NCBI GenBank assembly: GCA_021814565.1 | Contig: JAKAIC010000006.1 | Coordinates: 1 to 42,432 of the forward strand | Length of the DNA stretch: 42,432 nucleotides | From: Actinomycetes bacterium | GTDB lineage: Bacteria; Actinomycetota; Actinomycetes; S36-B12; UBA5976 | Direction of reading: 5' to 3' | Shown here: positions 35,989 through 40,084 of the stretch, in pieces | How the letters are laid out: each line of letters opens with the position of its first letter | Position numbering within the stretch: position 1 is the stretch's first letter | Program-made: the position numbers and the translations under genes | The notes under the pieces: model-generated | Databases searched by the model: none | The model's input: only the letters and a program-made list of their open reading frames with translations | Told to the model about the DNA's origin: nothing

Positions 35989-36462
35989 ATGGCTGGTGGC
36001 ACCCCTGCGGTGGTCGCACTGCAGGCTGCGGGCATTGCCTTCACTGAGCACCGGTACGACCATGACCCGGCCGCGCCGTCGTACGGCCTCGAAGCGGCAA
36101 TGGCACTCGGACTCCCCGCGGAGCAGGTGTTCAAGACCCTGCTATGCGGCATCGACGGCCGCGCGCACGTGGCCATCGTGCCGGTCACGACCCAGCTCGA
36201 CCTCAAAGCCGCCGCGGCAGCCGTGGGCGGAAAGCGAGCGGAGATGATGCCGGTGGATTCAGCGGAACGCATGACCGGCTACATAGCCGGCGGCATCTCC
36301 CCCTTCGGCCAGAGGAGGCTGCTGCCGACACTGATCGACGAGACCTGCGAGCTCTTCGACACCATCTACGTGAGCGGGGGACGCCGCGGCTTCGACATAG
36401 GCCTGGCGCCCGCTGATCTCATCCGAGTGCTCAGCGCAACTGTCACCGACCTCACCCGCTGA
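35989..36462 (+). CDS. ybaK: YbaK/EbsC-type aminoacyl-tRNA deacylase (Cys-tRNA(Pro) deacylase)
   Basis: This 157-residue protein belongs to the YbaK family, which removes cysteine wrongly attached to tRNA(Pro). It shows GIAFTEHRYDHDP, the family's lysine stretch EQVFKTLLCG, HVAIVPVTTQLDLKAAA, AERMTGYIAGGISPFGQRRLLPTLID and SGGRRGFDIGLAPADLI. Length matches the family. It is the only plus-strand gene in the window, diverging from hisD and converging on dnaE. Confidence 0.93.
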   Translation: MAGGTPAVVALQAAGIAFTEHRYDHDPAAPSYGLEAAMALGLPAEQVFKTLLCGIDGRAHVAIVPVTTQLDLKAAAAAVGGKRAEMMPVDSAERMTGYIAGGISPFGQRRLLPTLIDETCELFDTIYVSGGRRGFDIGLAPADLIRVLSATVTDLTR

Positions 36463-36466
36463 CGCA

Positions 36467-36537
36467 GAACCGCCGACGGCTCCTTTGTGGGGCCTTCGCG
36501 CCAGCTGAAGGCCCCACAAAGGAGCCGTCGGCGGTTC
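36467..36537. terminator. 31-bp perfect inverted repeat between convergent ybaK and dnaE; probable bidirectional terminator
   Basis: The left arm (36467-36497, GAACCGCCGACGG to GGGGCCTTC) is exactly complementary to the right arm (36507-36537), with a 9-nt loop GCGCCAGCT. It fills the space between the ybaK stop (ends 36462) and the dnaE stop (begins 36539). The position fits a terminator for both genes. There is no T run after the stem on either strand, so it would be of the tail-less type proposed for actinobacteria. The perfect 31-bp stem is longer than most terminators; a small repeated element is an alternative. Confidence 0.75.
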
Positions 36538-36538
36538 G

Positions 36539-39500
36539 TCAGGCCAGGGCGGAGGGGCCGAGCAGGGCCTTGAGATCGCCGTAGAGCGCGGTGGAGGTGG
36601 TGACACGCAGACGGTCATCGATGCGAAGCAGCGTTTCACGGCCGCCATCAAGCAGGCGAAGGCGCACTTCAGTGGTGCCGGGATGATTCCGCAGCACCTC
36701 CTTGAGCGGATCAATGACCGCCGGCACACACCTGGCAATGGCCATGCTGATGACCAGCGGCCCGCTGCGCGGCTCCGTGAGATCCGGCATGGTGACCTCC
36801 ATGGCCACCAGCCGCGCGGCGTCCTCGTCGCTCTTCTCCAGGCGCCCCTTGATGAAGACGACGTTGTCCTCGGAGATCATGGACGCCACGCTCTGGTAGG
36901 TCTGCGGCCAGATCATGACCTCGACCCCGCCCTCCAGGTCCTCGACCGTGGCGATGGCCCAGGCATTGCCCTGCTTGGTGACCTTGCGCTGCAGGCCGGT
37001 GATGAGACCGGCAATGGTGACGACCTGGCCGTCGCTGTAGTCGTCGCCGCTCAGTGCGGCAATGGAGGCGTCGGCGCCGGCCTGCAGGATGTGCTCCACG
37101 CCGAACAGCGGGTGATCACTGACGTACAGCCCCAGCATCTCTCGCTCGAAAGCCAGCAACTGCGATTTCTCCCACTCTTCGTCGCCGATGCTGAGGGTGA
37201 GACCGGCACCATCCTCGCCGTCACCTTCGCCAACGCCGCCGAAGAGGTCGAACTGGCCCACGGCCTCCGCGCGCTTGATCTCGAGCACCGAATCCACGGC
37301 CTCGGCATGGATGTAGACAAGTGACTTGCGCGCGTGTCCCAGCGAATCAAAGGAACCGGCCTTGATCAGCGACTCCAGCGTGCGCTTGTTGCAGACGGAG
37401 GCATCGACCTTGGCCAGGAAATCGATGAATGAGGTGTAGCGGCCCTTGCCGCGGCGGGTGGCGATGATGGAATCGACGACGTTGGCGCCGACGTTGCGAA
37501 TCGCCGTGAGGCCGAAGCGGATGTCGTTGCCGACGGGTGCGAAGTCAGGCTCGGATTCGTTGACGTCGGGTGGCAGCACTTGGATTCCCATGCGGCGGCA
37601 CTCGTGGAGGTAGCCGGCCAGCTTGTCCTTGTCGTCCTTAACCGAAGTGAGCAGCGCTGCCATGTACTCCGGCGCGTAGTTGGCCTTGAGGTAGGCAGTC
37701 CAGTAGGAGACCAGCCCGTAACCGGCAGTGTGCGCCTTGTTGAAGGCGTAGTCGGAGAAGGGCACCAGGATGTCCCACAGCGTCTTGATGGCATCCTCGG
37801 AGTAGCCATGCTGCTTCATGCCCGCGGAGAAGGGCACATACTCCTTGTCGAGGATCTCCTTCTTCTTCTTGCCCATGGCTCGGCGCAGCAGATCGGCCTT
37901 GCCCAGCGAGTAGCCGGCCACCTTCTGCGCGATGGCCTGCACCTGCTCCTGGTAGACGATGAGCCCGTAGGTCTCATCGAGGATCGAGGAGAGCGGCTCG
38001 GCCAATTCGGGGTGGATGGGCACCACCGGCTTGCGCTTGTTCTTGCGATCCGCGTAGTCGTTGTGGGCATTGGCGCCCATGGGCCCGGGGCGGTATAGGG
38101 CCAGGACGGCGGAGATGTCCTCGAAGGAGTTGGGCGCCATGGAGCGCAGCAGCCCACGCATGGGGCCGCCGTCGAGCTGGAACACGCCGAGCGTGTCGCC
38201 ACGCGCCAGCAGTTCGTAGGTGGCCACATCGTCGAGCGGCAGCTTCTCGAGGATGACTTCCTCACCGCTGCGGTTGGCCTTGATATGACGCACGCAGTCG
38301 TCCAGCACCGTGAGGTTGCGCAGGCCCAGGAAGTCCATCTTGAGCAGCCCCAGCGACTCGCAGGCGCCCATGTCGAGCTGGGTGATGATGGCGCCGTCCT
38401 GCTCGCGCCGCATGATGGGGATGACGTCGAGCAAGGGCTCAGCCGAGAGGATGACACCAGCGGCATGGACACCCCAGCCCCTACGCAGCCCCTCAAGTCC
38501 GCGTGCAGTGTCGACCACCTTGCGTACCTCGGCATCGGCCTCGTACTGGGTGCGGAACTCGCCGGCCTCCTTGTAGCGCTCATGCGACTCGTCGAAGATG
38601 CCCGAGAGCGGAATGTCCTTGCCCATGACCGCAGGCGGCATCAACTTGGTGATGCGCTCCCCCATCTGGAAGGGCATGCCGAGCACTCGACCAGCGTCCT
38701 TGATGGCAGCCTTGGCCTTGATGGTGGTGAAGGTGACGATCTGCGCGACCCGCTCTTCGCCGTATTTCTCGGTGGCATAGCGGATCATCTCCGCGCGTCG
38801 ACGCTCATCGAAGTCCATGTCGATATCGGGCATGGAGATGCGCTCGGGGTTGAGGAATCGTTCGAACAGCAGACCGAAGCGAATGGGATCGAGCTCGGTG
38901 ATCCCCATGGCCCAGGCCACGAGCGAGCCGGCCGCGGAACCACGGCCCGGTCCCACGCGGATACCGACCTGCTTGGCGTGTCGCACCAGGTCCGCCACCA
39001 CCAGGAAGTACCCCGGGAACCCCATCTGCCGAATGACGGCGAGCTCGTACGCGGCCTGGTCGAGATGGGCCTGCGGCACCGGATCCGGCGCAAAGCGCTC
39101 GATCAGGCCGCGCTCCACTTCCGCCACCAGAAAGCTGCCTTCGTCATAGCCCTCGGGCAATGGGAAGCGGGGCATGAGATCGCGTGGCTCACCGAATTCC
39201 ACACTGCAGCGTTCGGCGATGAGCAGCGTGTTGTCGCAAGCCTCCGGGATCTCGGACCACAGGTGTCGCATCTCCGCCGCCGATTTCAGGTAGAAATCCC
39301 GGGCGTCGAACTTGAAGCGGTTGGGATCGCTGAGGTTCTTGCCGGTCTGCACGCAGAGCAGGGTTTCGTGCGTGTCCGCATCGGAGGCGTAGGTGTAGTG
39401 CAGATCGTTGGTGGCCACCAAGGGCAGTTGCAGGGTCTTGGCGATGCGCATGAGGTCGTCGCGAGTGCGCCGCTCGATGGCGATGCCGTGGTCCATGAGC

Positions 39501-40084
39501 TCGCAGAAGAAGTTGTCCTTGCCCAGGATCTCCTGGTAGTCGGCTGCCGCCGCCAGGGCCCGGTCATATTGCCCGGCCTGCAGCCAACGGTTGACCTCGC
39601 CCGACGGGCATCCCGTGGTGGCGATGATGCCGCGGCCGTAGCGGTCCAGCAATTCACGATCGAGTCGGGGGTACTTGCGATACTGCCCCTCGAGTGAGGC
39701 CAGACTGGAGAGCCGGAACAGGTTATGCAGGCCCTCCGTGGTCTCCGACCACAACGTCATGTGGGTGTAGTTGACCTTGCCCTTGCCGGCACCCTCGTCA
39801 CCGACATCCTGTGCCACGTCACCGCCGAAGGAGAAGGGCGCGCGATCATGACGGGTGCCGATGGGCACGTAATAGGCCTCGAGGCCGATGATGGGTTTGA
39901 CCCCGACAGCCCTGCCCGCCTTGAAGAACTCGTAGGTGCCGAAGAGATTGCCGTGGTCGGTCATGGCCAGTGCCGGCATTTCCATGCGCGCGGCCTCTTT
40001 GAAGAGGTCTTTCACGCGCGCGGCACCATCGAGCATCGAGTACTCGGTGTGGGTGTGCAGATGGACGAAGGAGTCCCCAGCCAC
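36539..40084 (-). CDS. dnaE: DNA polymerase III alpha subunit
   Basis: The replicative polymerase catalytic subunit. The 1181-residue protein begins with a PHP domain (FVHLHTHTEYSMLDGAA, MTDHGNLFG, ATNDLHYTYASD). The polymerase palm follows, with catalytic Asp420 and Asp422 in MPDIDMDFDERRR, GPGRGSAAGSLVAW, GWGVHAAGVILS, MDFLGLRNLT and FNKAHTAGYGLVSYWTAY. A helix-hairpin-helix region, an OB-fold domain (VVTIAGLITGLQRKVTKQG) and a short C-terminal domain complete it. It is the DnaE1 type, without the exonuclease of PolC. The start is GTG at 40084 with GAGGTGA 4 nt upstream. A TATTCT about 54 nt upstream (40138-40143) could be a -10 element. Confidence 0.97.
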   Translation of the reverse strand: MAGDSFVHLHTHTEYSMLDGAARVKDLFKEAARMEMPALAMTDHGNLFGTYEFFKAGRAVGVKPIIGLEAYYVPIGTRHDRAPFSFGGDVAQDVGDEGAGKGKVNYTHMTLWSETTEGLHNLFRLSSLASLEGQYRKYPRLDRELLDRYGRGIIATTGCPSGEVNRWLQAGQYDRALAAAADYQEILGKDNFFCELMDHGIAIERRTRDDLMRIAKTLQLPLVATNDLHYTYASDADTHETLLCVQTGKNLSDPNRFKFDARDFYLKSAAEMRHLWSEIPEACDNTLLIAERCSVEFGEPRDLMPRFPLPEGYDEGSFLVAEVERGLIERFAPDPVPQAHLDQAAYELAVIRQMGFPGYFLVVADLVRHAKQVGIRVGPGRGSAAGSLVAWAMGITELDPIRFGLLFERFLNPERISMPDIDMDFDERRRAEMIRYATEKYGEERVAQIVTFTTIKAKAAIKDAGRVLGMPFQMGERITKLMPPAVMGKDIPLSGIFDESHERYKEAGEFRTQYEADAEVRKVVDTARGLEGLRRGWGVHAAGVILSAEPLLDVIPIMRREQDGAIITQLDMGACESLGLLKMDFLGLRNLTVLDDCVRHIKANRSGEEVILEKLPLDDVATYELLARGDTLGVFQLDGGPMRGLLRSMAPNSFEDISAVLALYRPGPMGANAHNDYADRKNKRKPVVPIHPELAEPLSSILDETYGLIVYQEQVQAIAQKVAGYSLGKADLLRRAMGKKKKEILDKEYVPFSAGMKQHGYSEDAIKTLWDILVPFSDYAFNKAHTAGYGLVSYWTAYLKANYAPEYMAALLTSVKDDKDKLAGYLHECRRMGIQVLPPDVNESEPDFAPVGNDIRFGLTAIRNVGANVVDSIIATRRGKGRYTSFIDFLAKVDASVCNKRTLESLIKAGSFDSLGHARKSLVYIHAEAVDSVLEIKRAEAVGQFDLFGGVGEGDGEDGAGLTLSIGDEEWEKSQLLAFEREMLGLYVSDHPLFGVEHILQAGADASIAALSGDDYSDGQVVTIAGLITGLQRKVTKQGNAWAIATVEDLEGGVEVMIWPQTYQSVASMISEDNVVFIKGRLEKSDEDAARLVAMEVTMPDLTEPRSGPLVISMAIARCVPAVIDPLKEVLRNHPGTTEVRLRLLDGGRETLLRIDDRLRVTTSTALYGDLKALLGPSALA

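Follow-up and report, generated by a model that had tools for sequence, protein, structure and literature searches.

A perfect palindrome between the convergent ybaK and dnaE genes is one copy of a dispersed repeat family and a candidate two-way terminator

REP/REPIN elements with their RAYT transposase are short dispersed extragenic palindromes that combine conserved ends with a middle in which changes are compensated (PMC3116915, PMC3733652). According to the available part of the latter report, REPs are found chiefly on the downstream side of genes, where the gap is tandem or convergent, several REP families may share one genome, and CGTC-type REPs apparently have no dedicated transposase (PMC3733652). 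Similarly, stem-loops in 40 genomes were found to concentrate on the 3' side of flanking genes (PMC1590033), and a terminator role was proposed for some of the SLS repeat families of Petrillo 2006 and Cozzuto 2008 (PMC1590033, PMC2267715). For Streptomyces clavuligerus, Term-seq revealed structured transcript ends that lack a U tract, and two-way ends were described to have longer and more stable stems (PMC8269248).

The window analysed here, a stretch of 42,432 nucleotides with a GC content of 66%, is contig 11 of a 2.0-Mb draft genome (G000). When its DnaE and a GroEL were compared with solved protein chains, two chains stood well ahead of the others in both cases (1540 and 1301 versus 876 bits for DnaE, 913 and 838 versus 711 for GroEL); these entries are mycobacterial, which points to Actinomycetota. 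As had been noted in the original prediction, the gap between the stop codons of ybaK and dnaE is filled by two 31-nt arms that match without a mismatch around a 9-nt loop, and this description is exact (Table 1). The gene names are supported by matches to the models TIGR00011 YbaK and DnaE. The TGA stop codon of ybaK (36460-36462) is separated from the palindrome by the 4-nt spacer CGCA and the stop codon of dnaE (36539-36541, TCA on the forward strand) by a 1-nt spacer, G. The reported lack of a T tract after the stem holds too, both strands having been checked. In the 42-kb window, the palindrome is the sole perfect stem of at least 12 bp (loop of up to 30), the runners-up reaching 11 and 10 bp, and the chance expectation of such 31-bp stems in the window is about 6e-12 if bases are independent. 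The 71-nt RNA of the palindrome yields a computed fold of -72.8 kcal/mol (z of -13.8 versus shuffles), and together with its flanks it folds far beyond shuffles on either strand. The palindrome is real and far above chance.

Table 1. Coordinates in the window of the palindrome, its parts and the neighbouring genes, and dimensions of two further palindrome families of G000.
Feature	Position	Strand	Remarks
Family A palindrome, copy under study	36467..36537		31-bp arms and 9-nt loop
61-bp core	36472..36532		gapless alignment of 14 full family A copies (G000)
Left arm	36467..36497	+	exact reverse complement of right arm
9-nt loop	36498..36506	+	GCGCCAGCT; between copies the sequence varies, the length is constant
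Right arm	36507..36537	+	exact reverse complement of left arm
Variable-but-paired stretch, left half	36484..36493		pairs 13-22; partner 36511-36520
ybaK, Cys-tRNA(Pro) deacylase	35989..36462	+	ends 4 nt before palindrome
dnaE, DNA polymerase III alpha	36539..40084	-	ends 1 nt from palindrome
Family B, G000			TTCTGCCA...TGGCAGAA, 64 bp; 13 places, 11 full
Family C, G000			CGCTTCAC...GTGAAGCG, 61 bp; 9 copies by exact ends

BLASTN of the element against its own genome (E <1e-5) located it at 17 places, comprising 14 full copies and three that are cut by contig ends (C43, C65, and C91), and a search with the end pattern returned 12 copies in its strict and 14 in its relaxed version. The mean density amounts to about one copy per 117 kb (17 in 1,995 kb). 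What appeared to be a lone odd terminator turns out to be one copy of a repeat family, here called family A, and its uniqueness is refuted by the copy number. The small dispersed palindromic element that had been suspected was thereby found, with 17 copies in G000 and end-pattern matches scattered over the genome; the search proposed along with it, run with the element, gave these copies in the own genome and none in the relatives searched. A 17-base piece of the arm has 22 exact matches, 20 of them paired and the other two at contig ends, so that the unit is the whole palindrome; an uptake-signal (DUS/USS) terminator was rejected on the same counts, lone single-arm copies being absent. Family A was not found in 58 relatives (E 0.001), which include G001, the only genus mate compared, where two matches to the end pattern were obtained, neither of them a palindrome. 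The core pattern gave two single non-palindromic matches in genome_contigs, judged to be due to chance, and none in viral_contigs, and BLASTN with family A gave no match in plasmids, all three being collections from which records of the own or a very near genome were possibly omitted. As far as searched, family A appears to be limited to one genome, G000, and is best read as a dispersed palindrome repeat that has recently multiplied.

Like REP/REPIN elements, family A is dispersed, extragenic, palindromic and multi-copy, and has conserved ends, a constant length and compensatory changes in the paired middle. However, a Y1_Tnp match is absent from G000 and G001, and no unpaired GTAG/CGTC tag was seen by eye at the family A ends, where CGTC occurs only within the paired stem and where the flanks are mostly AAC plus C, A or G on the left and mostly GG on the right. 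Also, the 61-bp core forms one near-perfect stem, whereas REPs are given as 20-40 bp in the available text. Because transposase and tag were not found, family A was not classed as REP/REPIN and is best described as a new repeat family of a known kind, a REP/REPIN-like stem-loop. The SLS families (PMC1590033, PMC2267715) are likewise intergenic stem-loop repeats, but their 40 genomes belong to other species and nothing resembling family A was seen among them in the available parts of these reports. A literature search, which does not prove absence, found no description of the three families A, B, and C.

The 14 full copies of family A align without gaps over 61 bp with a mean column identity of 94%. 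They share an outer block, the outer 12 bases of the left arm (GCCGACGGCTCC) being invariant in 14 of 14, followed by a part-variable middle, an inner block ending in CTTC, and the 9-nt loop of differing sequence. The middle is changed in four copies (C31, C66, C154, and C21), and in each of them the opposite arm is altered to match. When pairs were counted on the 14 full copies, of which 10 are distinct, the paired share was 98.8% of 260 cells and all three unpaired cells fell into the outermost two pairs. Both sides were changed at 7 of 26 pairs (10 cells, few events that stem from the four differing copies) and one-sided changes amounted to 0. These values were reached by none of 500 shuffles, and slid controls were only 30-59% paired. 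The original prediction had taken the perfection of the stem for a sign of recent origin or ongoing correction, and both the column identity and the maintained pairing of the four changed copies fit this. Terminators of Bacillus cereus evolve via G-U intermediates (PMC5381666), and the missing one-sided or G-U intermediates in family A are, with about four events, suggestive of arm-to-arm copying by template switching. RNA hairpins maintained by template switching (PMC8794818) resemble family A in their perfect stems and several simultaneous paired changes, a likeness in stem pattern that concerns the mechanism alone.

A hairpin census over the fetched stretches revealed families B and C in G000 (Table 1). 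The end pattern of family C was found in 30 copies of 62 bp each in G001 and in none of the other 57 relatives. In G001, 91.4% of family C pairs are formed (24 distinct rows), with the weakest pairing by the bulge; of the inner pairs, 23 is not formed in 10 and 24 not in 12 of the 24 rows. The middles are strongly compensated (69 two-sided cells versus 24 in shuffles), and the 8-bp ends served as search key. Further long hairpins, some of them recurrent, occur in G001 at sites orthologous to G000 elements. One more G001 type, CGCTAGGACTC...GAGTCCTAGCG, was encountered four times in the fetched stretches (L108:495-560; L221, L225, and L220). In the arms of most family B copies, GAACGCGCGTTC and TGAACGCGCGTTCA are present (the latter for example at L212:736-799), and both resemble the Gram-positive LexA box, GAAC-N4-GTTC.

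Placement relative to genes was judged from neighbours predicted by a simple codon-usage gene caller, not a standard annotation, and some of its gene calls run into a palindrome. In G000, 29 copies had two neighbours (A 10, B 10, C 9), or 26 (A 8, B 9, C 9) under stricter thresholds; the remainder of the 17 copies of A and 11 of B, situated at contig ends or missing a predicted gene on one side, did not enter the placement tests. Gap orientations in G000 were ++4, +-3, --2 and -+1 for family A, ++3, +-5 and --2 for family B, and ++2, +-3 and --4 for family C. Hence, many copies reside between tandem genes, that is outside convergent gaps too, and divergent gaps hold 1 of the 29; family A taken alone does not avoid divergent gaps significantly (1/8, p of 0.28). 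Compared with a null model of uniform insertion into intergenic sequence, in which overlaps with gene calls were counted as 0 distance, a stop codon is no more than 12 nt away for 6/8 copies of family A (null 0.09, p of 1e-5) and no more than 25 nt away for 9/9 copies of family B (null 0.16, p of 8e-8). For family C, 4/9 copies in G000 lie within 40 nt of a stop codon (null 0.22, not significant), and in G001 its placement is random relative to gene ends (8/28 divergent, null 0.29). Thus, the 3'-end habit belongs to families A and B in G000 and not to all such palindromes, and the behaviour of family C in the two genomes indicates that such palindromes need not be terminators.

As to the proposed bidirectional terminator, its positional part stood, since A and B copies hug stop codons and only one copy in 29 sits in a divergent gap; beyond position, nothing was found to support it. 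Of the traits of an intrinsic terminator, the palindrome displays a stable hairpin, rich in GC and placed immediately behind a gene, and lacks the U tract on both strands. In 12.4 kb of the window, one match to a U-tract terminator was obtained versus 4.8 (sd 2.7) in shuffles, so there is no sign that U-tract terminators are common in the window. The 3' bias may also arise from loss of promoter insertions. With moderate confidence, we favour the reading that the palindrome is one copy of the dispersed REP/REPIN-like family A which serves ybaK and dnaE as a two-way terminator without U tract and whose stem is kept perfect by selection and/or arm copying. If transcribed from either side, the palindrome would form a very stable hairpin immediately past the stop codon, and this hairpin would most likely pause RNA polymerase and release it, and/or shield a 3' end generated by Rho or nucleases. 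Unpaired arms would be counter-selected and/or corrected through template switching onto the opposite arm, resulting in a perfect stem. Judged from sequence, a role as terminator is probable though not proven, and by analogy the palindrome would work like a REP that is used as a terminator. With the transcript ends of S. clavuligerus it shares a strong stem without U tract; in contrast to family A, those ends are not presented as members of a single repeat family in the available part of that report (PMC8269248).

Within about 30 nt of the A, B and C copies in G000, the sequence is C-rich and G-poor before and G-rich after the palindrome, and thus C-rich upstream on both strands, which could be a Rho-loading signature. 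Left and right flanks of the same copy fold no better than mixed pairs, so there is no larger enclosing hairpin.

In G001, the ybaK-dnaE gap measures 63 nt and folds no better than shuffles (z of 0.23), so this gene pair can manage without such a hairpin. Considering all G000 element sites with an orthologous G001 gap, however, 13/28 carry a long hairpin in G001 versus 9/87 background gaps (Fisher p of 1e-4), the latter being taken from G001 contigs 1-17 and part of 111 and not drawn at random. When only gaps of at least 60 nt were considered and divergent background gaps were dropped, the proportions are 13/23 versus 8/45 (p of 0.002), the 23-site subset having been picked by hand with no orientation filter and without C21 (gaps 36 and 528). 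The 28 sites were tallied by hand from 37 sites in G000 (17 A, 11 full B, and 9 C); omitted were seven sites for which no ortholog was found (C44 for A; C141 (12930) and both C86 for B; C36, C127 and C44 for C), the A copy of C66 was dropped because of a contig end, and the pair of sites in C33 entered as one. Among the 13 positives, five (C10, C145, C19, C40, and C33) lie in G001 loci that were first fetched for holding family C, and the remaining orthologous sites were looked up by a composite search; the B site of C40 was counted as positive by family despite a hairpin score of 10 (cut-off 13). In 12 of the 13 cases the hairpin in G001 is of another type than the one in G000: G001 has family C where G000 has A at C10 and C145 and where G000 has B at C19 and C40, with both flanking genes conserved at C40, and family C is present in both genomes at C33 only. 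At the other 15 of the 28 sites, C31 among them, G001 lacks a long hairpin. Conversely, when family C sites of G001 were followed into G000, long hairpins were present there at 8 of the 18 that were informative (with two sites in one gap), as counted by hand from 30 sites, 11 of which had no ortholog found and one of which lay at a contig end. The orthologous-gap hairpins speak for a site that is favoured or useful and whose hairpin can be exchanged, and insertion hot spots would give the identical pattern.

A less probable explanation is that of a selfish or neutral miniature mobile palindrome which has no role here and persists between gene ends as insertions into genes and promoters are purged. 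The random placement of family C in G001 (30 copies, 28 with both neighbours) agrees with it, as do the several palindrome types side by side in each genome and the C31 gap, whose 84 nt in G000 include a family A copy and which in G001 is 9 nt long; in a search for empty sites in G001, C31 was nearly one, and other gaps hold diverged filler. On this explanation one would not expect families A and B to lie so much nearer to stop codons than the uniform intergenic model predicts, nor hairpins to recur at orthologous gaps more often than in background gaps. Clear marks of transposition were not obtained either. Y1_Tnp/RAYT transposases numbered 0 in G000 and G001, and the Y1_Tnp search was positive in 0/36 genomes of their taxonomic family, in 1/59 overall, and in 5/14 control genomes. 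Around the core, direct repeats 4-14 bp long were not clearly in excess when compared with mixed flanks (A 1.5 versus 0.92, sd 0.49; B 1.3 versus 1.38; C in G000 1.0 versus 0.56, sd 0.44; C in G001 0.13 versus 0.41), and no clear target duplication of at least 4 bp was found at A, B or C copies. No insertion sequence with family A ends was seen in the draft G000, where significant matches are two-armed or cut by a contig end.

The favoured reading, a family A copy in use as a two-way terminator, might be extended to the genus, in that interchangeable dispersed palindromes would be used as transcript-end modules: unrelated types would swap at 3'-end sites and spread without a REP transposase, stems would be kept by arm copying, and the site would outlast the wholesale turnover of its sequence. 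We consider this extension rather doubtful. The 14 full copies with some paired stem variants and the two sister genomes with differing palindromes at some shared sites provide a natural series, which lets one ask how palindromes spread without RAYT and whether they are co-opted as terminators.

It is improbable that the palindrome acts at the level of DNA, through a cruciform or its arm blocks and not through RNA, as a site for protein binding, chromosome organisation, or a landmark in replication or recombination. Such a site might account for the outer 12 bases of the left arm, which are invariant in 14 full copies with a partly variable middle, for the average spacing of one copy per about 117 kb, and for the sequence in most family B arms that resembles the LexA box; a tight link to stop codons would be unexpected, and family A was not found in G001. 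A fold-back chimera produced by the assembly, which three contigs that terminate inside a copy (C43, C65, and C91) might suggest, is very improbable because the window copy sits between genes whose order is conserved in G001, and contig ends within repeats are expected anyway. Finally, a unique strong intrinsic terminator that evolved in place would suit a stable hairpin between convergent stops but is extremely improbable given 17 closely similar genome copies, the lack of a U tract, and an orthologous G001 gap without such a hairpin.

Two identities were also rejected. The 13 Rfam matches, mostly to eukaryotic miRNA models and with four bacterial sRNA-type rows, are all under the gathering scores and were attributed to the long stem, and an integron attC site was discarded because the conserved box, judged by eye against the consensus, is lacking.

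Some copies have conspicuous surroundings. Immediately behind one family B copy (L214, right of 3029) lies a 24-nt tandem repeat, cctgagccggtcagggtagggcgg. Same-family palindromes occur as pairs about 1 kb apart, B-B at L210:19-1103 (C86 of G000) and C-C at L206:2987-4098 (C33 of G000), and such pairs around genes are possibly a cassette-like arrangement. The gene between the family B pair has a DUF559 match barely above and an AbiEi_4 match barely below the cut-off, and the frame tested between the family C pair has no family match. In C124 (L097:158-898), a gene with a DUF559 match at the cut-off stops 5 nt before a family A copy.
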